A stretch of DNA of 64,000 nucleotides from Aggregicoccus sp. 17bor-14 (lineage in GTDB: Bacteria; Myxococcota; Myxococcia; Myxococcales; Myxococcaceae): contig NZ_VJZZ01000003.1 in NCBI RefSeq assembly GCF_009659535.1, positions 248,001-312,000 on the forward strand, in the 5' to 3' direction. How positions within the stretch are numbered: position 1 is the stretch's first letter; every line of letters begins with the position of its first letter. The notes beneath the pieces were generated by a model that had not been told where the DNA came from, did no database searches, and saw nothing but the letters and a program-made list of their open reading frames with translations. This document shows positions 31,074 through 64,000 of the stretch, piece by piece. A program made the position numbers and the translations under genes.

Positions 31074-31406
31074 GTGCGTACGGCAGCCGGTGTCGCGTTC
31101 CTGCTCCTCCAGCTCGTCTGGATGCTCGTCGAGCAGCGTGGGCCCACGCGCTACTTCTGCTGGGCGCCGAACGACTACATGACGCGCTACCACCTCGAGG
31201 TCCGCGTGGCGGGGCGTGCGCTCTCCCCGGCGGAGATCCAGCAGCGCTACCACCTGCCGGCCGAGGACCTGTCCGAGAACGTCCCCCAGCACCTCATCGA
31301 CATCCTCGAGCAGCGCGAGCGGACCTCCGGACGCGGGGAGGAGGCCGCGGTGGCGCTGCGCTACCGCGTGAACGGCCGGGAGGAGCGGACATGGAGTCGC
31401 CCCTAG
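31074..31406 (+). CDS. Small membrane-anchored partner of the HTTM protein
   Basis: The 110-aa product starts at GTG 31074 with AGGAGG at good spacing. An N-terminal hydrophobic anchor (TAAGVAFLLLQLVWMLVEQ) leads to a compact domain: RYFCWAPNDYMTRYHLEVRVAGRALSP, then EIQQRYHLPAEDLSENVP and a C-terminal helix LIDILEQRE followed by VALRYRVNGRE. I do not recognise a named family. The coding end overlaps the HTTM gene by 16 nt, and its stop codon lies inside the first copy of a 15-bp tandem repeat. Such tight overlap suggests the two products form a complex at the membrane. Confidence 0.75.
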   Translation: MRTAAGVAFLLLQLVWMLVEQRGPTRYFCWAPNDYMTRYHLEVRVAGRALSPAEIQQRYHLPAEDLSENVPQHLIDILEQRERTSGRGEEAAVALRYRVNGREERTWSRP

Positions 31407-32488
31407 AGGAGTCGCCCCTAGAGGAGTCGCCCCTAGAGCACGGCCCGGTGCCGTCCCCAGACGTGCTCGCGCGCGAGCGCCCGGTGCGGGCCTCCTGGAA
31501 CCCGCTCGCGGTGAGCGGCACGGCGCTGCCGCCCAACGTCCTGCTCGCGGCGAAGCTCATCGCCGTGAGCTTCATTGCCACCGGGCAGGTGCAGGCGCTC
31601 CCCTCCCCCTTCCTCCCCTTCGTCGCCGTGCTGGACGGGCTGCCCCTCCAGCCCGTGCTCCAGGCGCTGTTCCTCACGGCGACGACGGCTCTGCTGCTCA
31701 ACCGCGCCGTGCGCACCTGTTGCCTGGTGCTGGGCGCGACCCTGTTCGTCGCGCTCCTGTCGTCGCGCCTCTACTTCGAGAACAACAGGACCTTCACGGC
31801 CTGCGTGCTCTTCCTCACGGGCCTGTACGAGCCACGCCAGAGGCACTCGCTCATCCGCCTCCAGCTCGTCGTCCTGTACTTCGGTGCGGCGCTCAACAAG
31901 GTGCTGGACCCCGACTGGCGCTCCGGCCAGTTCTTCGAGAACTGGGTCACCCACGTGCTGCAGTACCCGGGCTACGCGCGCTTCAGCGCCCTGCTGCCCC
32001 CGCTGGCGCTCTCCGCCCTCCTGGACTGGCTGGCCATCGCCACCGAGGCGGCGCTCGCGCTCGGCTTCCTCGTGCCCCGGCTGCGGCGCCCGGCCATCGT
32101 CCTCGGAGTGCTGTGGCACACCGGGCTCCTGCTGATCACCGGCCGCACGTTCGGGATGTTCTACTACGCGCTGCTGAGCAGCTATGTCGCAGTGGCCGCC
32201 TGGCCTCGGGCACCGCTCACCCTGCTCTACACGCCGGCGCGCCGCGGGGCGGGCGGGCTGCGCTCCCTGCTGCAGCGCCTCGACTTCGACCACGCCTTGC
32301 ACTGGGTCCGGAGCGACGCCGCCGCGGCGCGCGGGCCCGGCGTGCGCGCCAACGCCTACCGAGGCCTGGCCGCCTACGTGGCAGCCCTCCGGTACACGCC
32401 GGCCACGTACTTCGTCCTCCTGCTCGGAGTCCTGATGCTCCGTCCCCTCAGCCAGGTGTACCGCAGCCTCCTGATGAAGCTCGCCTGA
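31391..32488 (+). CDS. HTTM-domain integral membrane protein
   Basis: The 365-aa protein has several transmembrane segments and resembles the HTTM family, relatives of vitamin K-dependent gamma-carboxylase. Supporting pieces: LLAAKLIAVSFIATGQ, RAVRTCCLVLGATLFVALLSSR, LYFENNRTFTACVLFLTGLYEP, then LIRLQLVVLYFGAALNKVLDPDWRSGQFFENWV, which is the most family-like stretch, and LGVLWHTGLLLITGRTFGMFYYALLSSYVA. What HTTM proteins catalyse is mostly unknown; related enzymes carry out hydroquinone-driven oxygenation/carboxylation. The first 17 residues are three repeats of ESPLE encoded by a 15-bp tandem repeat. ATG 31391 has GGAGG 8 nt upstream, so the repeat is really in the protein. A methyltransferase gene follows after 27 nt. 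Confidence 0.8.
   Translation: MESPLEESPLEESPLEHGPVPSPDVLARERPVRASWNPLAVSGTALPPNVLLAAKLIAVSFIATGQVQALPSPFLPFVAVLDGLPLQPVLQALFLTATTALLLNRAVRTCCLVLGATLFVALLSSRLYFENNRTFTACVLFLTGLYEPRQRHSLIRLQLVVLYFGAALNKVLDPDWRSGQFFENWVTHVLQYPGYARFSALLPPLALSALLDWLAIATEAALALGFLVPRLRRPAIVLGVLWHTGLLLITGRTFGMFYYALLSSYVAVAAWPRAPLTLLYTPARRGAGGLRSLLQRLDFDHALHWVRSDAAAARGPGVRANAYRGLAAYVAALRYTPATYFVLLLGVLMLRPLSQVYRSLLMKLA
31394..31438 (+). repeat. Three tandem 15-bp repeats at a gene overlap
   Basis: The unit GAGTCGCCCCTAGAG occurs three times without mismatch. It encodes ESPLE in the HTTM frame and includes the TAG stop of the upstream gene in the other frame. Unit length is a multiple of 3, so copy-number change would alter the HTTM N-terminus without a frameshift, leaving the upstream stop in the first copy. 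Confidence 0.95.
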
Positions 32489-32515: not shown

Positions 32516-33376
32516 ATGCAGCTGCTCCCGTTCCTCGAGCCCTCCGCCGCAGCCCCGGCCGCCCGCGCCTACCAGGCGAGCGTGAACGCGCAGTTCGCAC
32601 AGGAGGCCGGGTACTGGAAGGGCGTGTACGCGCAGCAGTCTCTCGCCGGCCTGATCTACCAGCTGCGCCACGCGACCGCGCTCGCGTGGATCGACGCGCT
32701 GGCGCTGCCTCCGCTCTCGGCCGTGCTGGAGATCGGCTGTGGCGCCGCGCTCATGTCGGTCGCGCTCGCCCGGCGCGGACACCGCGTGGCGTGCATCGAT
32801 GCGAGCGCGGAGATGGTGAGGCAGGCCTGCACCGGGGTCCAGGAGGCGGGCGTGAGCGACCGGGTCACCGTCCACGAGGGCGACGCCCATGCGCTGCGCT
32901 TCGCCGCGGGCTCGCAGCGCCTGGTGGTCGCGCTCGGCGTGCTGCCCTGGCTGTACTCGCCGGCCCTGGCGCTCGCCGAGATGGTGCGCGTGCTGCGGCC
33001 GGGAGGCTACGTGCTCCTGAGCTCCGACAACCGCCTTCGCCTCGACCACCTGCTGGACCCCCGGCGCACGCCGGCGCTCGCCCCCGCCAGGCGCCTCCTG
33101 CGTCCGCTGGCGCGCGCGCTCGGAGTCCGCCGGCCCGCAGGCCTCGCCTCCCTGATGACGTATCGGAAGCTCACCCGGCTGCTGCGGGGCGCCGGGCTCG
33201 AGCCCCTCCGGCACCGGACCTTCGGCTTCGGGCCCTTCTCACTGCTCGGCAGGCCCCTGCTGCCGGGCCCGCTCGGGATCCGCCTGCACCAGCGCCTGCA
33301 GGCGCTCGCGGACCGCGGCGTCCCGGTGCTCCGGGCCACGGGGGCCCAGGACCTGGTGCTCGCGCACCGTGTGTAG
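32516..33376 (+). CDS. SAM-dependent methyltransferase, class I
   Basis: This 286-aa class I (Rossmann) methyltransferase shows motif I VLEIGCGAALMSVALARRG near residue 72, an acidic motif II VACIDASAEMVRQA, motif post-II VTVHEGDAHALRF, motif IV-like VVALGVLPWLYSP, and RVLRPGGYVLLSSDN. The last 100 residues are basic (RRTPALAPARRLLRPLARALGVRR) and may bind a membrane or an acidic acceptor. The arrangement resembles UbiE/BioC-like small-molecule methyltransferases; the acceptor is unknown. It lies 27 nt after the HTTM gene, so it is probably in the same transcript. A 205-bp gap with no visible gene precedes comA. Confidence 0.85.
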   Translation: MQLLPFLEPSAAAPAARAYQASVNAQFAQEAGYWKGVYAQQSLAGLIYQLRHATALAWIDALALPPLSAVLEIGCGAALMSVALARRGHRVACIDASAEMVRQACTGVQEAGVSDRVTVHEGDAHALRFAAGSQRLVVALGVLPWLYSPALALAEMVRVLRPGGYVLLSSDNRLRLDHLLDPRRTPALAPARRLLRPLARALGVRRPAGLASLMTYRKLTRLLRGAGLEPLRHRTFGFGPFSLLGRPLLPGPLGIRLHQRLQALADRGVPVLRATGAQDLVLAHRV

Positions 33377-33581: not shown

Positions 33582-34385
33582 ATGGACGGCATGACGAAGC
33601 GGCACGGCACCCAGCAGTACCTGCACCTCATCGGGGTGCGAGAGCTCCCGCGGCTGACCAGCCCCTTCGACCCGGGCTACGATCCCCTGACGGTCGAGGC
33701 GCACCTGGCGCAGAGCGCGCACCTGATGGCCTCGCTCAAGATCTCCATGGCCTGCTGGCTGATCGCCGACGAGGCCACGACGCGGCGGAAGATCGCAGCG
33801 GCGCGGGCCCACGGCGTTCCGACGGTCACCGGCGGGGGCCCCTTCGAGGTGGCGGCCGCCCAGGGGCAGCTCGAGGCCTACCTCGACCTGTGCGCGGAGC
33901 TGGGGGTGACGCGCATCGAGTGTGGCGAGGGCTTCACGCACCTGGCCGGTGAGCCGGGCGCCATCGTCCGGAGGGCCCACGCGCGGGGGCTGGCCGTGCA
34001 GTTCGAGCTCGGCAAGAAGCACGAGGGGCCCTTCACCGAGGCCTCCCTGCGCGAGGCGCTCTCGCTGGGGCGGGTCTGGCTGGACGCCGGCGCCGAGCAG
34101 CTGGTCGTCGAGGCGCGCGAGAGCGCGCGGGGAGTCGGGGCCTTCGGTGACGACGGGTCCCTGCGCTTCGAGTACGTGGAGCCCTTCGCCGAGCTGTTCG
34201 GGTTGGGGCGGGTGATCTTCGAGGCGCCCACCAAGGCGAGCCAGTTCGCCTTCCTCGAGCACTTCGGGCCGCAGGTGCAGCTCGGGAACGTGCGCCTGGA
34301 GGAGCTGCTGCGCGTGGAGATCTTCCGGCGCGGGCTCCACTCGGACGCGTTCGCCCTCCCCAACCTCCGTCCGGCCCACCCATGA
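33582..34385 (+). CDS. comA: Phosphosulfolactate synthase (ComA family)
   Basis: The 267-aa TIM-barrel protein matches the ComA family, which adds sulfite to phosphoenolpyruvate to give (2R)-phospho-3-sulfolactate. Blocks: LASLKISMACWLI (barrel strand with the usual Lys), HGVPTVTGGGPFEVA (the TGG-GP-E loop), CAELGVTRIECGEGF, GLAVQFELGKKHEG, AGAEQLVVEARESARGVG, and the C-terminal KASQFAFLEHFGPQVQLGNV, which corresponds to the 'P..Q..LI..FG..VNLGNI' signature. Length fits the family (250-280 aa). An alternative ATG four codons in (MTKRHG) is possible. The end overlaps comB by 4 nt (ATGA). ComA is best known from methanogens and Bacillus spores; its presence in this context is unusual. Confidence 0.85.
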   Translation: MDGMTKRHGTQQYLHLIGVRELPRLTSPFDPGYDPLTVEAHLAQSAHLMASLKISMACWLIADEATTRRKIAAARAHGVPTVTGGGPFEVAAAQGQLEAYLDLCAELGVTRIECGEGFTHLAGEPGAIVRRAHARGLAVQFELGKKHEGPFTEASLREALSLGRVWLDAGAEQLVVEARESARGVGAFGDDGSLRFEYVEPFAELFGLGRVIFEAPTKASQFAFLEHFGPQVQLGNVRLEELLRVEIFRRGLHSDAFALPNLRPAHP

Positions 34386-35149
34386 GCGCACGCAAGACGG
34401 TCGCGATCCACTGCTTCCAGGACGGCGCCGCCCCCTCCTTCTCCAGGTCGAAGGGCCACGCCATCGTGGCCGTGGACGTCATCCGGGCGACGACCACGGC
34501 CGTCACCGCCCTCGCCGCCGGCCGCCGCTGCTTCCCCGTCGCGACGGTGGACGCCGCGGTCCGGCGCGCCCGGCAGCTCGCGAGCCCGCTCCTGGTCGGC
34601 GAGCTCGGCGGGAACATGCCGTACGGCTTCGACCTCACCAACAGCCCGGCGGCGCTGGCGGCGCGCACGGACGTGGGGCGGCCCATGGTCCTGCTCTCCA
34701 CCTCCGGCACCCCGCTCATCTGCGCGCCCGGGACCTCGCAGCCGACCTATGTCGCGTGCCTGCGCAACTACCGGGTGCAGGCCCGGCACCTGGCGGCGCA
34801 CCACGACGCGGTCACCGTCATCGGCGCGGGGGCGCGCGGCGAGTTCCGCGAGGAGGATCAGCTGTGCTGCGCCTGGATCGCGGAGCAGCTGCTGCGCCTG
34901 GGCCACGAGCCGGAGGACGAGAGGACGCGGGCCCTGGTCGAGCGCTGGAGCGGAGCGCCGGTGGAGGCCCTCCTCTGCAGCGCGAGCGTGGCCTACCTGC
35001 GACGCACCGGCCAGCTCGCGGACCTGGAGTTCGTGCTGTCCCACGTCGACGACGTCGGCGAGGTGTACCGCCGCTGCGGGCGCGAGCTCGTGCGCGCGCC
35101 CGTCCTCCCCCTTCCGCTCACCCGGTCGCTCGAACATGCGCAGGCGTGA
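34382..35149 (+). CDS. comB: 2-phosphosulfolactate phosphatase (ComB family)
   Basis: The 255-aa protein is a ComB-family Mg-dependent phosphatase that turns phosphosulfolactate into 3-sulfolactate. Family signatures: AIVAVDVIRATTTAVTALAAG (acidic metal/catalytic segment), LVGELGGNMPYGFDLTNSP (the GE-G...GFD-NSP box), VLLSTSGTPLI, and VIGAGARGEFREEDQLCCAWIAE, matching the G-x-x-E-D-x-x-x-A block of the family. Length is as expected. Its ATG overlaps the comA stop, and its own stop overlaps the ATP-grasp gene by 14 nt, so all three are likely translationally coupled. Together with ComA it should make sulfolactate; the following ligase suggests this is an intermediate rather than the final product. 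Confidence 0.85.
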   Translation: MSARKTVAIHCFQDGAAPSFSRSKGHAIVAVDVIRATTTAVTALAAGRRCFPVATVDAAVRRARQLASPLLVGELGGNMPYGFDLTNSPAALAARTDVGRPMVLLSTSGTPLICAPGTSQPTYVACLRNYRVQARHLAAHHDAVTVIGAGARGEFREEDQLCCAWIAEQLLRLGHEPEDERTRALVERWSGAPVEALLCSASVAYLRRTGQLADLEFVLSHVDDVGEVYRRCGRELVRAPVLPLPLTRSLEHAQA

Positions 35150-36509
35150 GGCAGCGCCCGTGGACCTGGCCCCGGCGCCCCTGGACACCTCCGTCCCGGT
35201 GGTGGTCCTGTCCACGGGCTACTGCGGGATGGGCATCGCGCGCACCCTGGGGCGTCTCGGCGTCCGGATGCACGGCGTGCACCGCAGCGCGGATGCGCCC
35301 GCGGCCCACTCGCGCTACTGGCGGGAGCGGCTCACCTGGCCCTTCGACCCGGAGCGGGAGGGCGCGCTCGCGTGGCTGATCGGGATCGGCAGGCGCATCG
35401 GGGCGCGCCCCATCCTCATCCCCACCGACGACCGGGGCAGCATCTTCGTGAACGAGCACGCGGGCGCGCTGCGCGAGGTGTTCCGCTTCCCGGAGAAGCC
35501 CGCCGGCCTCGCGCGCACCCTCGCGAGCAAGAAGAGCATGTACCAGCTCTGCAAGCGGCTCTCGATCCCCACCCCCGAGACCGTCTTCCCGCGCTCGCGC
35601 GACGACGTGGCGGCGTACGCCCGCGCCGCGCGCTTCCCCGTGATGCTCAAGGGGATCGACACGGTCCTGCTCTACGAGCGCACCGGCACGCGGATGGTGG
35701 CCGTGCAGAGCGCCGACGAGCTGCTCTCGCTCTACGAGCGGATGGAGTCCCCCGAGGCGCCGAACCTGATGCTGCAGGAGCTCATCCCGGGAGGCTCCGA
35801 GCAGGTGTGGATGTTCAACGGCTACTTCGATGCGCAGTCCCGCTGCCTGTTCGGGCTCACCGGCAAGAAGCTGCGCCAGTACCCCGCGTACGCCGGCGTG
35901 ACCAGCCTGGGCGTCTGCGTGGCGAACGAGGCCGTCGCGCGCCAGACCTGCGAGCTCATGCGGGCGGTGGGCTACCGCGGCATCCTGGACATCGGCTTCA
36001 AGTTCGACGCGCGCACGGGCGAGTACAAGCTCCTGGACGTCAACCCGCGGGTCGGCGCGACGTTCCGGCTCTTCGTCGACTCCGCCGGCATGGACGTCGT
36101 GCGGGCGCTGTACCTGGACCTCACGGGGCAGCGCGTCCTGCCGGGCCGTCCGCTCGAGGGACGCAAGTGGATCGTGGAGCCCTACGATCTCTCCTCCTCC
36201 GTGCGCTACCTGCGCGACGGGGTCATCGGCCCGCGCGAGTGGGCCCGCTCCTTCCGCGGGCTCCAGGAGGGCGCCCTGTTCGCGTGGGACGACTTGGGTC
36301 CCCTGTTCGCCGCAGGGGGGCGTTCGTTGAGCCGGGGACTGCGCAGGCTGCGCGCGGGCATGGCCCCGGCGCTGCCGCCACGCCGCCGGGTGCAACAGCT
36401 CACGGAGGCTCACGGGGCTGCGGTCCTCCAGCCAGCCCGTCCCCGGCCCTCCCCTCTGCCGGCGCCAGCGGGGACGGGGGGCCGGCGCGCGCGCCCCAGC
36501 GGCGCTTGA
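35136..36509 (+). CDS. ATP-grasp carboxylate ligase
   Basis: This 457-aa ATP-grasp enzyme has an N-terminal preATP-grasp segment (VPVVVLSTGYCGMGIARTLGRLGVRMHGV), lid and adenine-binding strands (FPVMLKGIDTVLLYERTGTRMV, LMLQELIPGGSEQVWMFNGYF) and the metal-binding C-terminal sheet (GILDIGFKFDARTGEYKLLDVNPRVGATF) with the usual D-x-N-P-R. It therefore activates a carboxylate as acyl-phosphate and joins it to an amine, thiol or alcohol; it resembles carboxylate-amine ligases of polysaccharide and natural-product clusters. Coupled to comB, sulfolactate is an obvious candidate acid, but that is inference. The tail after residue 410 is Arg/Pro-rich and low complexity. ATG 35136 gives a 14-nt overlap with comB; GTG 35160 in frame is an alternative. 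Confidence 0.85.
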   Translation: MRRREAAPVDLAPAPLDTSVPVVVLSTGYCGMGIARTLGRLGVRMHGVHRSADAPAAHSRYWRERLTWPFDPEREGALAWLIGIGRRIGARPILIPTDDRGSIFVNEHAGALREVFRFPEKPAGLARTLASKKSMYQLCKRLSIPTPETVFPRSRDDVAAYARAARFPVMLKGIDTVLLYERTGTRMVAVQSADELLSLYERMESPEAPNLMLQELIPGGSEQVWMFNGYFDAQSRCLFGLTGKKLRQYPAYAGVTSLGVCVANEAVARQTCELMRAVGYRGILDIGFKFDARTGEYKLLDVNPRVGATFRLFVDSAGMDVVRALYLDLTGQRVLPGRPLEGRKWIVEPYDLSSSVRYLRDGVIGPREWARSFRGLQEGALFAWDDLGPLFAAGGRSLSRGLRRLRAGMAPALPPRRRVQQLTEAHGAAVLQPARPRPSPLPAPAGTGGRRARPSGA

Positions 36510-53020: not shown

Positions 53021-53680
53021 ATGAGCGGTCCTCTCTTCCCACGCTGGACGAACACGGTGTCGCGGCTGTCTGCCGCGGCCCTCCTTGCGATCCCCGCCAT
53101 CGCGATCGGCGGCCTCATGGCCTACGTCCGCTCGCCCTTGGTGACCAACCAGTTCCACCCGGTGGAGCAGCCCATCGAGTTCGATCACCGCCATCACGCG
53201 GGTGACGAGCAGATCGACTGCCGCTACTGCCACTGGACGGTGGAGAACTCCCCGTCCGCCGGCATCCCGTCCACCACGGTGTGCGTCAGCTGCCACGCGC
53301 AGGTGTGGAACAAGAGCCCGTACCTCAACGAGGTGCGCAAGGCCTTCTTCACCGACCAGCCCATCCCCTGGGTGCGGGTGCACAACCTGCCGGACTTCGT
53401 CTACTTCAACCACTCCATCCACGTGAACAAGGGCGTCGGCTGCGTCACCTGCCACGGCCGCGTGGACCAGATGGGCGCCGTGTACCAGCAGGCCCCGCTC
53501 ACCATGGGCTGGTGCCTGGACTGCCACCGCAACCCCGCGCCGAACCTGCGTCCGGCCGAGGCCATCACCTCCATGACCTGGAAGCCGCCCGAGGGCGTGG
53601 ACCCGGTCGAGTACGGAAAGACGCTCGCGGCCCAGTACGACGTCCACTCGCGCACGAGCTGCACCACGTGCCACCGCTGA
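53021..53680 (+). CDS. actA: Alternative complex III subunit ActA, pentaheme cytochrome c
   Basis: The 219-aa subunit carries electrons within alternative complex III, the quinol:electron acceptor oxidoreductase that replaces bc1. It has one N-terminal transmembrane helix (VSRLSAAALLAIPAIAIGGLMAYV) and five heme c sites: CRYCH, CVSCH, CVTCH, CLDCH and CTTCH. The helix keeps the heme domain on the periplasmic side. ATG 53021 (MSGPLFPRWTN) is chosen because the transmembrane helix follows at normal distance; the frame extends 40 codons upstream without family character. First gene of a long, tightly packed operon; actB starts 23 nt after its stop. Confidence 0.92.
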   Translation: MSGPLFPRWTNTVSRLSAAALLAIPAIAIGGLMAYVRSPLVTNQFHPVEQPIEFDHRHHAGDEQIDCRYCHWTVENSPSAGIPSTTVCVSCHAQVWNKSPYLNEVRKAFFTDQPIPWVRVHNLPDFVYFNHSIHVNKGVGCVTCHGRVDQMGAVYQQAPLTMGWCLDCHRNPAPNLRPAEAITSMTWKPPEGVDPVEYGKTLAAQYDVHSRTSCTTCHR

Positions 53681-53703
53681 ACCCGAAGCACCCTGGCGCC
53701 CCC

Positions 53704-56700
53704 ATGAAGGACACCTCCCCTACTTCGTTCGCGCTCCCTGTCGTGAGTGACGCGACCCCGGCCCCCGCCAGCAGCCATGGCGCGGACCACACGCACGACG
53801 CCGTCGGCGAGATGTTCGACGCCGCCGCCAGCGTGCCCGCGGCCTCCGGCACCACGCCGGCCGGCTACGGCAAGACCTACTGGCGCTCCATCGAGGAGAA
53901 GCTGGCCACCCCCGAGTTCCTCGAGGCCACCCGCCCCGAGTTCCCCGAGGGCGCGGACCTGCCCCCCTCCGGCTTCATGCGCCGCGAGTTCATGCAGCTG
54001 CTCGGCGCGAGCCTCGCGCTCGCCGGCGTGAGCGCCTGCAGCACCCGCCCCGTGAACGAGAAGATGCTGCCCTACACCAAGACCCCCACGGGTCTGGCGC
54101 CGGGCAACCCGCTCACCTACGCGAGCGCCTTCACCTTCGGCGGCCACACCAGCGGCCTGCTCGTCACCGCCTGGGAGGGTCGCCCCACCAAGGTGGAGGG
54201 CAACCCCCAGCACCCGGTGAACCAGGGCGCCGCCGGCCCCTTCGAGCAGGCGCTGCTGCTCAGCCTCTATGACCCGCAGCGCGCCCGCGTGCTGCGCCAG
54301 GGCAAGAGCCCCAAGGCGCTGCGCACGCTCGCCGAGGACGTGGCCGCGCTGGTGAACAAGGCCGCCGCGACCGACGGCGGCGCGAAGATCCGCTTCCTCG
54401 TGGAGCCCAACGCGGGCCCCACCCTGCAGGACCTGCGCAAGCGCATCGGGCAGAAGCTGCCCCAGGCCAAGTTCGTGGAGTTCGTGGGCGTGACCCAGGA
54501 CCCGGCCAGCGAGGGCGCCAACGCGCTCTTCGGCCAGAGCCTCACCGCGCTCTACGACTTCAGCCAGGCGGACGTCATCCTCAGCCTGGACGCGGACTTC
54601 CTCGAGAGCCGCCCGGCGAACCTCGCCTACGCGCGCGCCTTCGCCAACCGCCGCGACCCGAACGTGGGCGAGCTCAACCGCCTCTACGTGGCCGAGCCCC
54701 GCATGACCATCACCGGCGGCATGGCGGACCACCGCCTGCGGGTGAAGAGCGCCGAGGTCGCCGCCGTGGCGGCCGCCGTGCTGCAGGCCGTGGGCGGCCC
54801 CGCCGCGCAGCTGGCCTCCGCCGCGGGCAAGTTCCCGCTCCCGCCCAGCGCCCAGAAGTTCGTGGCCACCGTCGCCGCGGACCTCAAGAGCAAGGCGGGC
54901 CGCAGCGTCGTCGTCGCCGGCGAGCGCATGCCGGCGGCCGTGCACGCCATGGCGCACGCCATCAACGCGGCGCTGGGCAGCGTGGGCAAGACCGTCACCT
55001 TCGTGCCGGCCCCGGGCAGCCAGCCCACCGGCCCGAGCGCCCTGCGCGCGCTCGCCGAGGAGCTCAAGAGCGGCGCCGCGGACACCCTGGTCATCACCGC
55101 CTGGAACCCCGTGTACGCGGCCCCCGCGGACGCGGGCCTCGCCGAGCTGCTGGACGCGACGAAGAACGCGAACCGCGGCAACCTGCGCGTGCTCTACACC
55201 AGCATGCACGAGGACGAGACCAGCGCCCACGCGGACTGGTTCGTCCCGGCCGCGCACCCCATGGAGACCTGGGCGGACGGCCGCTCCATCGACGGCACCG
55301 TCACCCTCGGCCAGCCGCTCATCCAGCCGCTCTACAACGGCGTCTCCGAGAGCGAGCTGCTCGCGCTGTTCCTCGGCAACAACCCGAACGGCGCGCTGCC
55401 CAGCAGCTACGCCCTGCTGCGCGACTACTGGCGCACCCAGGCGGGCGCCGGTGACTTCGAGACCGCGTGGGAGACCTGGGTGGGCGAGGGCTTCGTGCCC
55501 CGCTCCGCCGCCCAGGCCGTGCAGGTGACCCCGGACTACGGCCGCGCCGCCCAGGCGCTCGCCGCCTACCAGCAGCCGGCCGGGGGCGAGCTCGAGATCA
55601 ACTTCGTCCCCGACTACAAGGTCTACGACGGCCGCTTCGCCAACAACGCCTGGCTGCAGGAGCTCGCGCACCCGGTCACCAAGATGACCTGGGACAACGC
55701 CGCGCTGCTCAGCCCGGCCACCGCGGGCGCGAAGAACCTCGAGGCCGGCGACGTGGTCACCATCCAGTACGGCGGCCGCAGCCTCGAGGCCCCCGTGTGG
55801 ATCGTGCCCGGCCACGCGGACGACACCCTCACGCTCGCCATCGGCTACGGCCGCACCGGCCTGCACGAGACCGTGGCGCAGGGCGTGGGCGTCAACGCCA
55901 ACCTGCTGCGCCGCACGGACGCCCCCTGGTTCGACGGCGGCGCCACCGTGACCAAGGTGCGCAAGAGCTACAAGTTCTCGCTCACCCAGATCCACTGGCG
56001 CATGGAGGGCCGCCCGCTCGCGCTCGACATGAGCTACGACGAGTTCAAGAAGGAGCCCAAGGTCCTCGAGCGCGTGCGCGGCGAGCAGGTGAACCTGCTC
56101 GCGGACTACCCCTACGAGGGCTACAAGTGGGGCATGGCCATCGACCTGGCCCGCTGCACCGGCTGCGCCGCGTGCGTCGTCGCCTGCCAGGCCGAGAACA
56201 ACATCCCGGTCGTGGGCAAGGAGCAGGTGGGCAAGGGCCGCGAGATGGCCTGGCTGCGCATCGACCGCTACTTCTCCGGTGACGAGCGCGACCCGGAGAT
56301 GGTGATGCAGCCGGTGATGTGCGTGCACTGCGAGAAGGCGCCCTGCGAGTACGTGTGCCCCGTGAACGCCACCGTCCACTCGGACGAGGGCCTCAACGAG
56401 ATGGTGTACAACCGCTGCGTCGGCACCCGCTACTGCTCGAACAACTGCCCCTACAAGGTCCGCCGCTTCAACTACCTGCACTTCACCGGCGGCAAGACCG
56501 CGCCGGAGAAGATGCTGATGAACCCGGACGTCACGGTGCGCGCGCGCGGCGTGATGGAGAAGTGCACGTACTGCGTGCAGCGCATCGAGCGCACCCGCAT
56601 CAACTCGCGCATCGAGAAGCGCAGCATCCGCGAGGCGGAGCTCAAGACCGCCTGCCAGCAGACCTGCCCCACCCAGGCCATCGTGTTCGGCACGCTGCAG

Positions 56701-56877
56701 GTCCCCAAGGGCGAGAAGCCCTGGGCCGTGGCGGCGCTGCACGAGGACCCGCGTGCCTACAAGCTGCTGCACGAGCTCGGCACCCGCCCGCGCACCAGCC
56801 ACCTGGTCCGCGTCCGCAATCCCCACCCGGACCTCGTCGCCGAGGCTCCCCAGGCTGAGCACGAAGGAGGCCACTGA
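53704..56877 (+). CDS. actB: Alternative complex III subunit ActB, Mo-oxidoreductase-like fused to FeS protein
   Basis: This 1057-aa fusion has a molybdopterin-oxidoreductase-like part (about 115-790), which in ActB proteins is known to bind no molybdenum cofactor, and a ferredoxin-like part (about 795-1035). The latter has four Cys groups for one [3Fe-4S] and three [4Fe-4S] clusters: [37 protein letters not shown] with CTYC, and CQQTCP. It passes electrons from quinol oxidation. A twin-arginine/lipobox-like element ([20 protein letters not shown]) lies at about residues 93-112, after an N-terminal region with a short His-rich stretch (SHGADHTHD). ATG 53704 gives the complete family N-terminus. 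Ends 3 nt before actC. Confidence 0.95.
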
Positions 56878-56880
56878 GTC

Positions 56881-58323
56881 ATGGCCGAGATCGCTACCGT
56901 CCCCTACGCGGTCGACCCGCTGGAGCCGCGCCACCTGGTGGCGCCGCACCACGACGACGCCACCCTCAACGAGACCCTGCTCGACCACGTCTGGCGCAAG
57001 CCCGGCAAGGGCTGGTTCATGTTGATGGGCTGCACCCTCACCCTGCTCGGTCTGCTCGTGGTCGGCGTGACGTACACGCTCGCCCGCGGCATCGGCGTGT
57101 GGGGCAACAACCAGCCGGTGGGCTGGGGCTTCGGCATCATCAACTTCGTGTGGTGGGTGGGTATCGGCCACGCCGGTACCCTCATCAGCGCCATCCTCCT
57201 GCTCTTCCAGCAGAAGTGGCGCACCTCCATCAACCGCTTCGCGGAGGCCATGACCCTGTTCGCGGTCATGTGCGCGGGCCTCTTCCCGCTGCTGCACACG
57301 GGCCGCCCCTGGTTCGCGTTCTGGCTCTTCCCCTACCCCTCCACCCTGGGCGCCTGGCCGCAGTTCCGCAGCCCCCTGGTGTGGGACGTGTTCGCGGTGT
57401 CCACGTACATCACCGTGAGCGCCCTGTTCTGGTACGTGGGCCTCATCCCGGACCTCGCCGCGCTGCGTGACTCGTCCAAGAGCAAGGTCGCGCGCACCGT
57501 GTACGGCATGTTCAGCCTCGGCTGGCGCGGCAGCGGGCGGCACTGGCACAACTACAAGATCGCGTACCTGCTGCTCGCGGGCCTCAGCACCCCGCTGGTG
57601 CTCAGCGTGCACACGATCGTGTCCTTCGACTTCGCCACCAGCCTCATCCCCGGCTGGCACGCCACCATCTTCCCGCCCTACTTCGTGGCCGGCGCCGTGT
57701 TCAGCGGCTTCGCCATGGTGGTGACGCTGATGGTGCCCGCGCGCAAGTACCTCGGCCTGCGCGACGTCATCACGGACCGCCACCTCGAGAACATGAACAA
57801 GGTCATCCTCGCGACCGGCCTGCTCGTGTCCTACGGCTACATGATGGAGCACTTCATCGCCTGGTACTCCGGCAACGAGTACGAGATGTGGACCTTCTAC
57901 GTGAACCGCGCCACGGGTCCCTACGCGCCGGTGTACTGGCTGATGATCACCTGCAACGTGGTCACGCCGAACATCTTCTGGTTCCGCAAGTGCCGCCAGT
58001 CCATCCCCATCATGTGGGTGGCCAGCATCGTGGTGAACATCGGCATGTGGTGCGAGCGCTTCATCATCATCGTCACCTCGCTGAGCCAGGACTTCCTGCC
58101 CTCCAGCTGGGACGTGTACGCGCCCACCTGGGTGGACTGGTCCATCTACATCGGTACCCTGGGCCTGTTCGGCACCCTGTTCCTGCTGTTCCTCAAGTTC
58201 GTCCCGGCCGTGGCCATCAGCGAGGTGAAGGAGCTGCAGCTCGAGCTGCGCCACCACGCCGAGCACGCCGCGCACGGCGGTGGCCACGCTCACGGCCACG
58301 CTCACACCGAGGGAGCGCACTAA
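56881..58323 (+). CDS. actC: Alternative complex III subunit ActC, NrfD-like quinol-binding subunit
   Basis: The 480-aa integral membrane protein of the NrfD family is the main quinol-oxidising subunit of alternative complex III. About ten transmembrane segments are visible, from [20 protein letters not shown], through [20 protein letters not shown] (the conserved G-x-x-H-A-G quinone-site helix), to [22 protein letters not shown]. The last 23 residues are an unusual His-rich tail (9 His, with repeated H-A-H/G-H-A units) that would face the cytoplasm. AGGAGG inside the actB end serves as its ribosome site. Part of the act-cox operon. Confidence 0.95.
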
Positions 58324-58327
58324 GCCC

Positions 58328-58873
58328 ATGGAAGCCAAGGTCCTCGATAGCTGGGTGCTCGCCGAGTTCCCCACCCCCACCGCCCTGGTGGAGGCCACCA
58401 ACACGGTGCGCCTCAAGGGGTACACGAACCTCGACACCTACTCGCCCTACCCGCTGCACGGTGGCTCGGAGGCCCTCGGCCTGCCGCGCTCCAAGGTCCC
58501 GCTCATCGCGCTCACCGGCGCGATGACCGGCCTCATCACGGCCTTCGCCATGCAGACGTACATGAACACCTTCGACTACCCCATCAACGTGGGTGGCCGT
58601 CCGCTGTTCAGCCTGCCCTCGTGGTTCCCCATCATGTTCGAGCTCACGGTGCTCATCAGCGCCCTGAGCATCGTGTTCGGGCTCTTCGGCCTGTCGCGCC
58701 TCCCGCAGCCCTACCACCCGGTGTTCGAGAACGAGGCCTTCCGCAGCGCCTCCACGCACGGCTACTGGCTGAGCGTGGGGCACGCGACCGGCACGGACGC
58801 CACCGAGGTGATGAACCAGCTCACGGCCCTGGGCGCGACCCAGGTGTCCGTCGTCACCGGAGAGAAGGAATGA
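58328..58873 (+). CDS. actD: Alternative complex III subunit ActD
   Basis: The 181-aa membrane subunit of DUF3341 type begins with a soluble ferredoxin-like half (LDSWVLAEFPTPTALVEATN, RLKGYTNLDTYSPYPLHGG), then two transmembrane helices (PLIALTGAMTGLITAFAMQTYM; then FPIMFELTVLISALSIVFGLFG) and a short cytoplasmic tail (HPVFENEAFRSAS, then DATEVMNQLTALGATQVSVV). ActD does not carry cofactors; it supports the quinol-oxidising core. ATG 58328 follows actC by 4 nt. The end overlaps actE by 4 nt (ATGA). Confidence 0.93.
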   Translation: MEAKVLDSWVLAEFPTPTALVEATNTVRLKGYTNLDTYSPYPLHGGSEALGLPRSKVPLIALTGAMTGLITAFAMQTYMNTFDYPINVGGRPLFSLPSWFPIMFELTVLISALSIVFGLFGLSRLPQPYHPVFENEAFRSASTHGYWLSVGHATGTDATEVMNQLTALGATQVSVVTGEKE

Positions 58874-59442
58874 GGCGGCTCCTCCTGCCAGTCGCGGCGC
58901 TCGCGCTCGCCGGCTGTGACATCTCCTCGGACTTCCTGCAGCGCATGGAGTCGCAGCCGCGCTACAGCTACTACGAGGAGTCCGAGTTCTTCGCCGACGG
59001 CCGCGCCATGCGCCTGCCGCCGGACCACACGGTTCCGCGCCAGCGCCCGGTGGGCAACCCCGCGCTCACCACCGGCCGCATGAACGGCCAGTTCGTGGTG
59101 GACATGCCCATCGAGCTGAACCAGGCGGTGCTCGCCCGCGGCCAGAAGCGCTACAACATCGTGTGCGCCCAGTGCCACGGCGTGCTCGGTGACGGCAACA
59201 GCGTGGTCGCCGAGAACATGGCGCTGCGCCTGCCGCCCAGCCTGCTCGAGCTGCAGAACAAGCCGAACGGCCACTTCTTCGCCGCCATCACCGAGGGCTA
59301 CGGCGTGATGCCCAGCTTCTCCGGTGAGATCGACGTCCAGGACCGCTGGGCCATCGTCGCCTACGTCCGCGCGCTGCAGACCGCCCGCAAGAGCGGCCCC
59401 TCTGCCCCCGGCGCGCAGCCCCCCCCTCAGGAGAACCGATGA
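58870..59442 (+). CDS. actE: Alternative complex III subunit ActE, monoheme cytochrome c lipoprotein
   Basis: This 190-aa lipoprotein has the lipobox LALAGC (Cys at about 16) and one heme c site, CAQCH, near residue 100, with the distal Met probably in YGVMPSF. RYNIVCAQCHGVLGDGNSVV is a typical class I cytochrome start and RWAIVAYVRALQ the C-terminal helix. It hands electrons from the complex to the oxidase or to a soluble carrier. The mature N-terminus would be lipid-anchored on the periplasmic side. Overlaps both neighbours by 4 nt. Confidence 0.93.
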   Translation: MRRLLLPVAALALAGCDISSDFLQRMESQPRYSYYEESEFFADGRAMRLPPDHTVPRQRPVGNPALTTGRMNGQFVVDMPIELNQAVLARGQKRYNIVCAQCHGVLGDGNSVVAENMALRLPPSLLELQNKPNGHFFAAITEGYGVMPSFSGEIDVQDRWAIVAYVRALQTARKSGPSAPGAQPPPQENR

Positions 59443-60629
59443 TTTCCATCGAGCGCTTCACCGGCGGCTCCAAGGCCATGCTCGTCTCGGGCGTGATCGG
59501 CCTGGCGGGCCTGCTGCTCACGGCCGTGGGGTTCTTCATGAACCCGCAGGCCACCATGTTCAGCTACCTCCTCGCGTTCGCCTACTGGTGCGGCATCGCG
59601 GTGGCGTCCATCATCCTGCTCTGCATCTTCCACACCGCGAAGGCCAAGTGGCCCACGGTGGTGCGCCGCGCGCTGGAGACCCAGGGCGTGAGCGTGGGTG
59701 TGTTCGCGGTGCTCATCCTGCCCATCATCTTCGTGGGCATGAAGTACCTGTACCCCTGGCACACCACGCCGGACACCTACAACGCGGAAGAGCTGCACCA
59801 GCTCGCGCACAAGCAGCACGGCTACCTGAACATGCCGTTCTTCATCGCGCGCCAGGTCATCTACTTCCTCGTCTGGATCTTCGTGAGCAACCGGCTCTTC
59901 GGCTGGAGCACCCGCCAGGACGAGACCGGTGAGCTCGAGCTCACCAACAAGGCGCGCCGCCTGGGTCCGGGCAGCCTCCCCTTCCTTGGGCTCACCATTA
60001 CTTTTGCTGGCTTCGACTGGCTGATGAGCCTCACGCCGCTCTGGCAGTCCACCATCTACGGCGCGTATTACTTCGCCGGCAGCTTCCTGGCCGCATTCGC
60101 GGTGCTGACCATCGCCACCGTGAACGCGCGCGGGGACAACCTGTACGGCAACCTGGTGACGACGCACCACCTGCACAACCTGGGCAAGTTCCTGCTCGCG
60201 TTCGTCGCCTTCTGGGCCTACATCGGCTTCAGCCAGGCGCTGCTCGTGTGGATCGCGAACCTCCCCGAGGAGGCCGCCTGGTACTCGGTGCGCATCTTCG
60301 GCGGCTGGCGCCCGATGTCGATCGCCCTGTTCTTCGGGCACTTCGTCATCCCCTTCTTCGTGCTGCTCAGCCGCGACATCAAGCTGCAGCCCCGGCCGCT
60401 CGCGGTCATCGCCACCTACATCCTGGTCATCCACTTCATCGACCTGTACTGGCTCGTCTGGCCGGCCTACAGCGCGGGCAGCCCCACCTTCCACTTCACG
60501 CTCGTCACGGCGTTCGCGGGCGTGGGCGGCCTCTCGGTGGCCTACGGCCTCTTCCGCTTCCGCGGCCAGTACAGCCTGCCGGTGAAGGACCCCTACATCG
60601 CTGACTCGCTGAGGTACGTGCAGCCATGA
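59439..60629 (+). CDS. actF: Alternative complex III subunit ActF, NrfD-like
   Basis: The 396-aa integral membrane protein is the second NrfD-type subunit of alternative complex III, structurally similar to ActC. About ten transmembrane helices are visible: AMLVSGVIGLAGLLLTAVGF, FAYWCGIAVASIILLCIFH, FAVLILPIIFVGM, FIARQVIYFLVWIFVSN, LTITFAGFDWLMSLTPLWQS, FLAAFAVLTIATV, LAFVAFWAYIGFSQALLVWI, FGHFVIPFFVLLSRDI, AVIATYILVIHFIDLYWLVW and FAGVGGLSVAYGLF. It may translocate protons; it binds no heme. Coupled by 4-nt overlaps to actE and to the next gene. Confidence 0.93.
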   Translation: MISIERFTGGSKAMLVSGVIGLAGLLLTAVGFFMNPQATMFSYLLAFAYWCGIAVASIILLCIFHTAKAKWPTVVRRALETQGVSVGVFAVLILPIIFVGMKYLYPWHTTPDTYNAEELHQLAHKQHGYLNMPFFIARQVIYFLVWIFVSNRLFGWSTRQDETGELELTNKARRLGPGSLPFLGLTITFAGFDWLMSLTPLWQSTIYGAYYFAGSFLAAFAVLTIATVNARGDNLYGNLVTTHHLHNLGKFLLAFVAFWAYIGFSQALLVWIANLPEEAAWYSVRIFGGWRPMSIALFFGHFVIPFFVLLSRDIKLQPRPLAVIATYILVIHFIDLYWLVWPAYSAGSPTFHFTLVTAFAGVGGLSVAYGLFRFRGQYSLPVKDPYIADSLRYVQP

Positions 60630-61096
60630 AGAAGACCCAGAGTGAGCTCGAGTCGCGCATCGTCACCGGTGCGCACGGGGTGGCCGCGGAAGAGGACCAC
60701 TTCAGCATGGGCAAGGTGCTCGCGGTGGGCATCGGCTCGCTGGTGCTCTTCGGCATCGGTGGGCTGGGCGCCTACGGCATCCTCACCCACGCGGAGAAGG
60801 AGGCGCAGCCGGACGGCCCCGCCCCCACTCCGGCCGCCATCGGGCAGTACGAGATCGGCATCGTGAACCAGCGCCTGTTCGACGTCGACAGCCACGCGCT
60901 CACCAAGATCAGCGCCCAGCAGCTGGCGCTGAAGAACGGCTGGGGCGAGAAGCCCGGCCAGGTGGTGCACATGCCCATCGACCAGGCCATGGACTCGGTC
61001 ATCGCCGCCAAGGGCATCCCCCCGGTGCCCGCGGTGCAGTCGCCGCCCTCCACGCCCCCGGCCCCGCCTCCGCAGAGCAAGCGCAACCCCTACTGA
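60626..61096 (+). CDS. Small membrane protein in the ActG position
   Basis: The 156-aa protein has one transmembrane helix near residues 29-49 (GKVLAVGIGSLVLFGIGGLG) with the C-terminal domain outside. That domain has a 'YEIGIVNQRLFDVDSHALTK' beta-strand, an RLFDV-type turn, and a helix QVVHMPIDQAMDSVIAAKGI, then a Pro-rich tail. It overlaps actF by 4 nt and precedes the SCO gene by 45 nt. It holds the place of the small extra ACIII subunit (ActG) in other organisms, but by sequence I cannot confirm it. Could be an assembly factor for the ACIII-caa3 pair. Confidence 0.75.
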   Translation: MKKTQSELESRIVTGAHGVAAEEDHFSMGKVLAVGIGSLVLFGIGGLGAYGILTHAEKEAQPDGPAPTPAAIGQYEIGIVNQRLFDVDSHALTKISAQQLALKNGWGEKPGQVVHMPIDQAMDSVIAAKGIPPVPAVQSPPSTPPAPPPQSKRNPY

Positions 61097-61141
61097 CGCG
61101 CTCCACCCCCTCGCCCTCCCCCTTCCCGCTGCAGGCCCCCC

Positions 61142-61999
61142 ATGCGCTCCCCCCTCTCGAACCTCGCTGCCGTCCTGGCCCTGCTGGCGCTCGCCGCCAC
61201 GGCGCCCGCGCACGCGCTGCCGGGCAAGTTCGAGTCGGATGACGTCATCCGCCGGGCCCAGAGCGGCGAGCCGCCTCCGCTGCAGGGGGTGGACGTGGTG
61301 GAGAAGCTCGGGGAGCCCGTGGCGCTGCAGGCCCGCTTCACGGACGACACCGGCCGCGAGGGTCCCTTCGCAAGCTGGCTGCAGCCGGGCAAGCCCGTGC
61401 TGCTCACGCTGGTGTTCTACCGCTGCAAGATGCTCTGCAACCTGGTCGTCAACGACCAGGTGCGGGCCATGAAGGAGCTGGGCCTCAAGCTGGGCCAGGA
61501 CTACAGCGTCCTCACCGTCAGCATCGACCCCAAGGACACCCCGGCCGAGAGCCAGGAGCGCCGCGGCCGCTACCTGCAGAGCATGGGCAAGCCCCTGGAC
61601 GCGGACTGGCGCTTCCTCACCGGCACCGAGCAGAACATCCGCGCGCTCGCGGACAGCGTCGGTTTCAAGTACACGTACGACGAGGCGACGAAGCAGTACG
61701 CCCACCCCGCGGTGGTCCAGGTGCTCAGCCCCACGGGCACCGTGTCCCGCTACCTCTACGGCACCTCCTTCCGCACCCAGGACGTCGGGCTCGCGCTGGT
61801 GGAGGCCCGGCAGAACAAGGTGGGCCTCAGCCTCGAGCGCATCATCCTGTCCTGCTTCAAGTATGACGCCGCCTCGCGGCGGTATGGCTTCTACATCTTC
61901 GGATTTCTCCGGCTGGGCGCGCTCGCGGTCTTCGGAGCCCTCTCCGCGATGCTCGTGGTCCTCTGGAGGCGCGAGCTGAAGAAAGGCACGGCGGTATGA
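61142..61999 (+). CDS. SCO1/SenC copper chaperone
   Basis: The 285-aa protein inserts copper into the CuA centre of oxidase subunit II. An N-terminal signal (LAAVLALLALAATAPAHA) precedes the thioredoxin-like SCO domain. Copper ligands are Cys95 and Cys99 in RCKMLCNLV and His188 in YAHPAVV. TVSIDPKDTPAE and WRFLTGTEQNIRALAD are the family's other hallmark stretches. Unusually for SCO proteins, a C-terminal transmembrane helix is present (YIFGFLRLGALAVFGALSAMLVVLW), giving a membrane anchor at the C-terminus. Overlaps coxB by 4 nt (ATGA), which fits co-delivery of chaperone and target. Confidence 0.93.
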   Translation: MRSPLSNLAAVLALLALAATAPAHALPGKFESDDVIRRAQSGEPPPLQGVDVVEKLGEPVALQARFTDDTGREGPFASWLQPGKPVLLTLVFYRCKMLCNLVVNDQVRAMKELGLKLGQDYSVLTVSIDPKDTPAESQERRGRYLQSMGKPLDADWRFLTGTEQNIRALADSVGFKYTYDEATKQYAHPAVVQVLSPTGTVSRYLYGTSFRTQDVGLALVEARQNKVGLSLERIILSCFKYDAASRRYGFYIFGFLRLGALAVFGALSAMLVVLWRRELKKGTAV

Positions 62000-62997
62000 A
62001 CGATTTCCTCCACAACCTCCTGTTCCTCCCGGAGCAGGCCTCCACGTTCGCCGAGAAGGTGGACTCGCTGCACTTCTTCGTCGTCGGCGTGACCATGCTC
62101 ATGTCGATCGGCGTGGGCACCGCCGCGATCTTCTTCTTCTTCCGCTACCGCCGGCGCGAGGACCACCAGCACACGGACTACGTGGTGCCGAGCCTCAAGA
62201 CCGAGGCGCTCTTCATCAGCGTGCCCCTGGTGTTCTTCCTCACCTGGTTCGCCATCGGCCTGCGCGACTACGTGCACATGACCCAGCCGCCCAAGGACGC
62301 GATGGACGTCTACGTCATGGGCAAGCAGTGGATGTGGAAGTTCTCCTACCCGGAGGGCCCCAACGGCGTGAACGTCCTGCACGTTCCCGCCAACCGCGAC
62401 GTGCGCCTGCTGATGACCAGCCGCGACGTCATCCACTCCTTCTTCGTGCCGGCGTTCCGCATCAAGAAGGACGTGCTGCCGGGCCGCTACACCCAGGTGT
62501 GGTTCAACGCCACCAAGCCGGGCACCTACCAGGTGTTCTGCACGGAGTACTGCGGCCTGTCCCACTCGAAGATGCTCGCGGAGGTGGTGGTGCTCGCCCC
62601 CGAGGACTTCGACACCTGGGTGAAGGAGCAGCGCAAGGGCAGCCTGCAGAACCGCCAGGACGCGCTGGCGGACGTGAGCCTGGTGGACCCGCCCGCGCGC
62701 ATGGCCGAGCAGGGCCAGGCGCTGGTCGGCAGCCAGGGCTGCCTCAAGTGCCACAGCGTGGACGGCACGCCCCACATCGGGCCCACCTTCCGCGGCCTCT
62801 ATGACCGCGAGGAGAGCCTCGAGGGCGGCCAGAAGGTGCACGTGGACGAGGCCTACATCACCCAGTCGATGATGGACCCCGGTGCGCACATCGTCACGGG
62901 CTTCGGCAACGTGATGCCGAGCTACCAGGGCAAGCTGCACGGCGCCGAGAGCGCCGCCATCGTCGAGTACATCAAGACCCTGCGCGCCGAGCAGTAA
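61996..62997 (+). CDS. coxB: Cytochrome c oxidase subunit II with fused cytochrome c (caa3 type)
   Basis: The 333-aa subunit has two N-terminal transmembrane helices ([23 protein letters not shown]; then [19 protein letters not shown]), then the cupredoxin domain with the full CuA site: His in [10 protein letters not shown], Cys182, Glu184, Cys186, His190 and Met193 in [21 protein letters not shown] is the aromatic electron-entry segment. Residues 235-333 are a fused cytochrome c with CLKCH (Cys249, Cys252, His253) and a likely axial Met in NVMPSYQG. The fusion marks a caa3 oxidase that can take electrons directly from alternative complex III. Confidence 0.95.
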
Positions 62998-63032
62998 GGG
63001 CGCGCCCCAAGGACTTCCCGAGGGACCTTCTC

Positions 63033-64000
<968 letters not shown>

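Follow-up and report, generated by a model that had tools for sequence, protein, structure and literature searches.

What does a bacterium make with a ComA-family and a ComB-family protein that are encoded directly ahead of an ATP-grasp ligase? Sulfolactate is an intermediate of coenzyme M synthesis and a component of Bacillus spores. The gene arrangement lies in a 64,000-nucleotide stretch of Aggregicoccus sp. 17bor-14 DNA (the window), part of a genome of 6.92 Mb in 38 contigs. The answer that we prefer, tentatively and at somewhat less than an even chance, is that a rare, probably laterally acquired cassette makes sulfolactate or a close relative and then ligates it. The genes concerned, with positions in the window, are the following.

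31074 to 31406, + strand: small membrane-anchored protein without a Pfam match, in an SdpA-like position and paired with the HTTM protein
31391 to 32488, + strand: HTTM/SdpB-like membrane protein (PF05090, 4.4e-7), a context gene
32516 to 33376, + strand: class I SAM-dependent methyltransferase (Methyltransf_11, 4.1e-20), 205 nt upstream of comA
33582 to 34385, + strand: ComA-family protein of 267 aa, divergent and phosphosulfolactate synthase-like (PF02679, 1.8e-45)
34382 to 35149, + strand: ComB-family protein of 255 aa, 2-phosphosulfolactate phosphatase-like (PF04029, 2.8e-34)
35136 to 36509, + strand: ATP-grasp ligase-like protein, 457 aa when read from the ATG, with an alternative GTG start at 35160

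Inspection of the coordinates confirmed the 4-nt overlap of comA (33582-34385) and comB (34382-35149) that the first-pass annotation had described. The ATP-grasp gene does follow comB; however, the 14-nt overlap claimed for this pair exists only if the ATG at 35136 is the start, whereas a start at GTG 35160 leaves a gap of 10 nt. No Shine-Dalgarno-like sequence precedes the ATG, whereas the GTG has GAGG upstream and is the start chosen by the gene caller. The GC3 of comA, comB, and the ATP-grasp gene is 0.95 to 0.965, compared to 0.949 in the neighbouring genes, and because of this match all three appear to be genuine coding sequences. Each is open over its full length, free of frameshifts and internal stops. 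Neither a sigma-70-like promoter nor an intrinsic terminator was seen at the locus, which is weak evidence in a GC-rich genome. No glycosyltransferase, deacetylase, or other acceptor-making gene was found near the ATP-grasp gene, and the remainder of the 64-kb window contains no glycan cluster and no natural-product cluster. Judged by eye, the gene order at 53021-63998 is like that of an alternative complex III and cytochrome oxidase cluster, and is ordinary.

Ordinary coenzyme M synthesis was rejected as the role of the locus. The downstream enzymes of that pathway had already been reported as missing from the window, and we found no match to ComC (PF02615) or ComD (TIGR03845) anywhere in the genome. 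Archaeal-type coenzyme M synthesis is therefore unlikely, and sulfolactate would be an end or branch product. The lyases and PLP enzyme of bacterial-type coenzyme M synthesis are likewise absent from the neighbourhood checked beside comA, where the neighbours are the methyltransferase, ComB, and the ATP-grasp protein.

The window ComA matches PF02679 (E = 1.8e-45; 155.8 bits, cut-off 25.2). Its score against TIGR03849, the archaeal ComA equivalog, is 148.7 bits, below the 280-bit cut-off; the scores of four other ComAs, from bacteria or phage, are 230-277 bits, also below 280, and those of the paralogs 86-104. In the tree, the window ComA groups with true ComA against the paralogs (100/100) and forms the longest end branch, 2.46. 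By identity, its closest relatives (31-35%) are the ComAs of bacterial coenzyme M clusters.

Residues were compared to those of eight true ComAs, among them the M. jannaschii protein and five encoded in bacterial coenzyme M loci. Kept in the window ComA are D30, K53, K146, E177-x-R179-E180-S181, E214-A215-P216-x-K218-x-x-Q221, and N236; of these, D30, K146, R179-E180-S181, P216, K218, Q221, and N236 are absent from the paralog clade. K146 aligns with K137 of M. jannaschii ComA, the proposed general acid. D50, G55, G57, T86, S115, G182, R253, and T256 are lost. The replacements are ISMACW at the G-x-G after the strand-2 lysine, GGG for GGT, G115, A182, and H-S-D-A for R-x-D-T. The expectation of the first-pass annotation that ComA has its key active-site residues is thus borne out for the lysine, E-x-R-E-S, EAP-x-K-x-x-Q, and N, but fails for G-x-G, GGT, S115, G182, R253, and T256, which are invariant or nearly so in the eight true ComAs. 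An AlphaFold run on a two-row alignment returned an uncertain barrel (pLDDT 57). Judged from its residues and its place in the tree, the protein is a ComA with remodelled loops.

Remodelling could have gone as far as a change of substrate: PEP and sulfite would no longer be used, and the hydroxy acid made by the operon and conjugated by the ligase would not be a sulfonate. The loss of G55, G57, T86, S115, G182, R253, and T256, most of them at predicted active-site barrel loops, points in this direction, as do the TIGR03849 score (148.7 compared to 230-277 in the four other bacterial or phage ComAs) and the length of the end branch. However, every signature that divides true ComA from the paralogs is present, E-R-E-S and K146 included, and we consider the change of substrate unlikely, while taking it seriously.

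The ComB-family protein matches PF04029 (E = 2.8e-34) and aligns to 2z0j, 1vr0, and 2yyv; its best score against the NCBIfam equivalog profiles is 82.9 bits, compared to a cut-off of 332. When set beside three solved ComB proteins and the Legionella ComB, it keeps the DxxRAT, GE, F..xNSP, GT, and ED motifs (D32, R35-A36-T37, G73-E74, N87-S88-P89, and D159), and M79 replaces a lysine conserved in all four. The key residues expected of ComB are thus mostly present; the exception among the motifs is TTNGT, which reads STSGT, with S108 in place of the N of T-N-G-T.

For the ATP-grasp ORF, Pfam returned a weak CPSase_L_D2 match only (3.8e-5). A profile of ten relatives (A1) matches carbamoyl-phosphate synthetase, biotin carboxylase, D-Ala-D-Ala ligase, and L-amino acid ligase in the PDB, and the protein keeps the invariant K, Q, and N-x-R (N-P-R) columns, in agreement with the ATP-grasp fold and with nucleotide binding. 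The set of Mg ligands (acid or Gln, acid, Asn) is incomplete: the first metal-ligand-type position is Gly287 (ATG numbering), the others are Asp and Asn, and Asp285 lies two residues earlier on the strand. The position of Gly287 is Glu or Asp in every relative aligned in register; L071, which is very distant, has the one other letter, and the FEVEF members show apparent gaps, but both seem to be artefacts of the alignment. Asp285 could compensate for Gly287, and the Asp-x-Gly could represent a shifted metal ligand or a mark of reduced activity. A search for the Asp-x-Gly pattern found it only in the window genome among 193 searched. Actinobacteria may have an Asp-x-Gly group of ATP-grasp proteins. 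AlphaFold, run on a two-row alignment of the ligase, gave no usable model (pLDDT 39).

At 25-33% identity, relatives of the ATP-grasp protein are frequent in the phylum, and such proteins turn up repeatedly in glycan clusters. Named bacterial genomes scanned with the ligase yielded one Omnitrophota relative at 25% identity. One relative adjoins a PIG-L deacetylase and a glycosyltransferase, a neighbourhood that fits acylation of an amine. On a Priestia megaterium plasmid (L040, 5025-8161), genes for a PIG-L deacetylase, a glycosyltransferase, and an ATP-grasp protein are consecutive, near spore coat/exosporium genes, in a bacillithiol-like arrangement. An Omnitrophota MAG (L007, 6511-10200) encodes a 1229-aa ORF that contains a CapK-like adenylating domain and a glycosyltransferase, both recognised by eye, together with an ATP-grasp domain.

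The ATP-grasp protein might also have no part in the chemistry. Cells would then store sulfolactate free, as a solute, in the way inferred for Bacillus spores, and the ligase would be co-transcribed but unrelated or weakly active. Myxobacteria sporulate too, and both the Gly at the metal-ligand-type position and the lack of acceptor genes nearby agree with this explanation. So does B. subtilis, in which a bacterial ComA-ComB pair alone (yitCD) is linked to abundant sulfolactate, and mature spores contain 5% sulfolactate (PMC517825). However, the ligase tightly abuts comB, and the window ComA has lost residues that plain sulfolactate makers keep. We therefore regard storage of the free acid as improbable, without dismissing it.

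No second ComA of the window type was found among 195 genomes of the phylum, and no second comA-comB-ATP-grasp triplet in these genomes or in the plasmid or phage collections. With a single ComA of this type in the phylum, conservation speaks neither for nor against the placement of the ATP-grasp gene beside comAB. Six other genomes of the phylum contain ComA-like proteins, with 28-33% identity to the window ComA; the sixth match (G149) is weak and lies inside a larger ORF. Five of the six loci were read, and at least four are beside MmgE/PrpD-like genes. The paralogs placed in the tree form a clade separate from true ComA. A conserved myxobacterial pathway was rejected, as all five further ComA-like loci read in the order are of the MmgE/PrpD-linked paralog type.

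ComA-like paralogs with a conserved TEIRGPYY motif adjoin MmgE/PrpD-family genes (L038 and L043-L047); these neighbours are annotated in Salinibacter and were recognised by sequence in several genomes of the phylum, more tentatively at L043. The TEIRGPYY paralogs may represent a second, uncharacterised ComA-family function. True ComAs on plasmids belong either to coenzyme M clusters, in alkene-using bacteria and a methanotroph, or to a Legionella fusion; the ComA on the Salinibacter plasmid is of the paralog type. Searches of viral contigs for relatives of ComA and the ligase returned one phage ComA and one weak ATP-grasp. This phage ComA (L070, 5854-6657 of IMGVR_UViG_3300025117_000202) is full-length, has canonical motifs, and scores 244.5 bits against TIGR03849; no relative of it was found in the annotated phage collection. 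The same contig carries an intein-containing terminase-like gene and a portal-like gene.

That the locus represents the remains of an acquired operon, in decay or without function, as its restriction to a single genome of the phylum and the unusual substitutions in all three proteins might suggest, is very improbable in view of the full-length frames without frameshift or internal stop, the native GC3 (0.95-0.965), and the tight overlaps.

A full-length relative of the methyltransferase gene at 32516-33376 was found neither among 145 genomes of the order nor on plasmids; the gene is as isolated as comA. Because of this isolation and its position 205 nt before comA, it may belong to the cassette as a fourth member. 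The HTTM protein and its small partner were also considered as members; this is unlikely, since the pair is found elsewhere without the cassette. The two co-occur in three genomes (G050, G052, and G093) that have neither comAB nor the window's methyltransferase, and the small protein directly upstream of HTTM is conserved in L055-L057. They are probably a separate module. At 31074-32488, the small membrane protein and the HTTM/SdpB-like protein form a pair that resembles sdpA-sdpB.

In the preferred reading, a cassette that makes and then ligates sulfolactate or a close relative, the ComA-family enzyme would add sulfite, or perhaps another nucleophile in view of its altered loops, to phosphoenolpyruvate. 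Removal of the phosphate by ComB would then yield (R)-3-sulfolactate or a similar lactate substituted at position 3, which the ATP-grasp protein would couple to an acceptor with an amine or hydroxyl group, for example an amino sugar or an amino acid. A tailoring role is possible for the methyltransferase. The gene identities given by the first-pass annotation hold, and its interpretation is supported in part. Activation of the sulfolactate carboxylate by the ligase, as the first-pass annotation proposed, is possible; the hydroxyl could equally be the nucleophile, as the lactate hydroxyl is in VanA-type ligases, and the ligase need not use sulfolactate. Direct observation covers the presence, overlap, and family membership of the genes, the residues kept and lost, and the absence of ComC and ComD; the substrates, the order of the reactions, the ligation, and the acceptor are our inference. 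Because both key enzymes have unusual active sites, the pathway is a testable guess.

The cassette is supported by the comA-comB overlap and the abutment of comB and the ligase in one reading direction, by the true-ComA residues and the 100/100 grouping, by the largely intact ComB motifs, by the absence of ComC and ComD, by the yitCD precedent, and by the ATP-grasp relatives in glycan clusters. Against it are the failure to find a second triplet in the collections searched, the losses in ComA, Gly287 of the ligase, and the lack of acceptor-making genes nearby. The gene set is real, rare, and phylogenetically isolated, and the conjugation chemistry is a plausible hypothesis. A more specific proposal is doubtful: that the methyltransferase, ComA, ComB, and the ATP-grasp protein form a cassette for a new class of conjugates of sulfolactate (or of a 3-substituted lactate), through a remodelled ComA and a shifted ligase metal ligand (Asp-x-Gly for x-x-Glu).

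If true, an operon that makes and then ligates sulfolactate would give bacteria a new way of producing sulfonated small molecules or glycans, and would supply sulfolactate to the environmental sulfonate cycle. Nucleophile choice by the ComA barrel could also be tested with the altered ComA. In the literature searched, no paper connects sulfolactate to myxobacteria or phosphosulfolactate synthase to ATP-grasp.

The archaeal ComA-ComB steps of coenzyme M synthesis (M. jannaschii ComA, 1qwg) use the same two families in series, and the ComA lysine, E-x-R-E-S, EAP-x-K-x-x-Q, and N are common to both; in contrast, the window genome lacks ComC and ComD, an ATP-grasp gene follows, and several ComA loop residues are lost. 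The yitCD genes of B. subtilis are likewise a ComA-ComB pair outside coenzyme M synthesis; however, they are linked to free spore sulfolactate, and a coupled ATP-grasp is not described there (PMC517825). The bacterial coenzyme M clusters of Xanthobacter, Mycolicibacterium, Nocardioides, and Methylocystis hold the closest ComA relatives (31-35%), but have fumarase-type lyases and a PLP enzyme in place of the window's ComB and ATP-grasp (PMC11507031).

The ATP-grasp family of glycan clusters (carbamoyl phosphate synthase-like; Bradyrhizobium, Priestia, Pacificitalea, and Omnitrophota) has the same domain layout as the window protein, and a C-terminal FAWDDLGP motif is common to the latter and the Omnitrophota protein. 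Identity is 25-33%, and these proteins have Glu or Asp where the window protein has Gly. In Legionella lytica, a comA-comB pair is also tied to an activating ligase. On its plasmid (L036, 3562-8433 of NZ_CP071528.1), the gene for a 970-aa fatty-acyl-AMP ligase-carrier-ComA fusion (FAAL-ACP-ComA) lies between those for a BioF/serine palmitoyltransferase-like enzyme, upstream, and ComB, downstream. This ligase differs from the window's in that it is an AMP-forming fatty-acyl ligase fused to ComA and accompanied by the BioF-like enzyme; the locus looks like one for lipid synthesis, possibly a sulfonolipid-type pathway built on sulfolactate.
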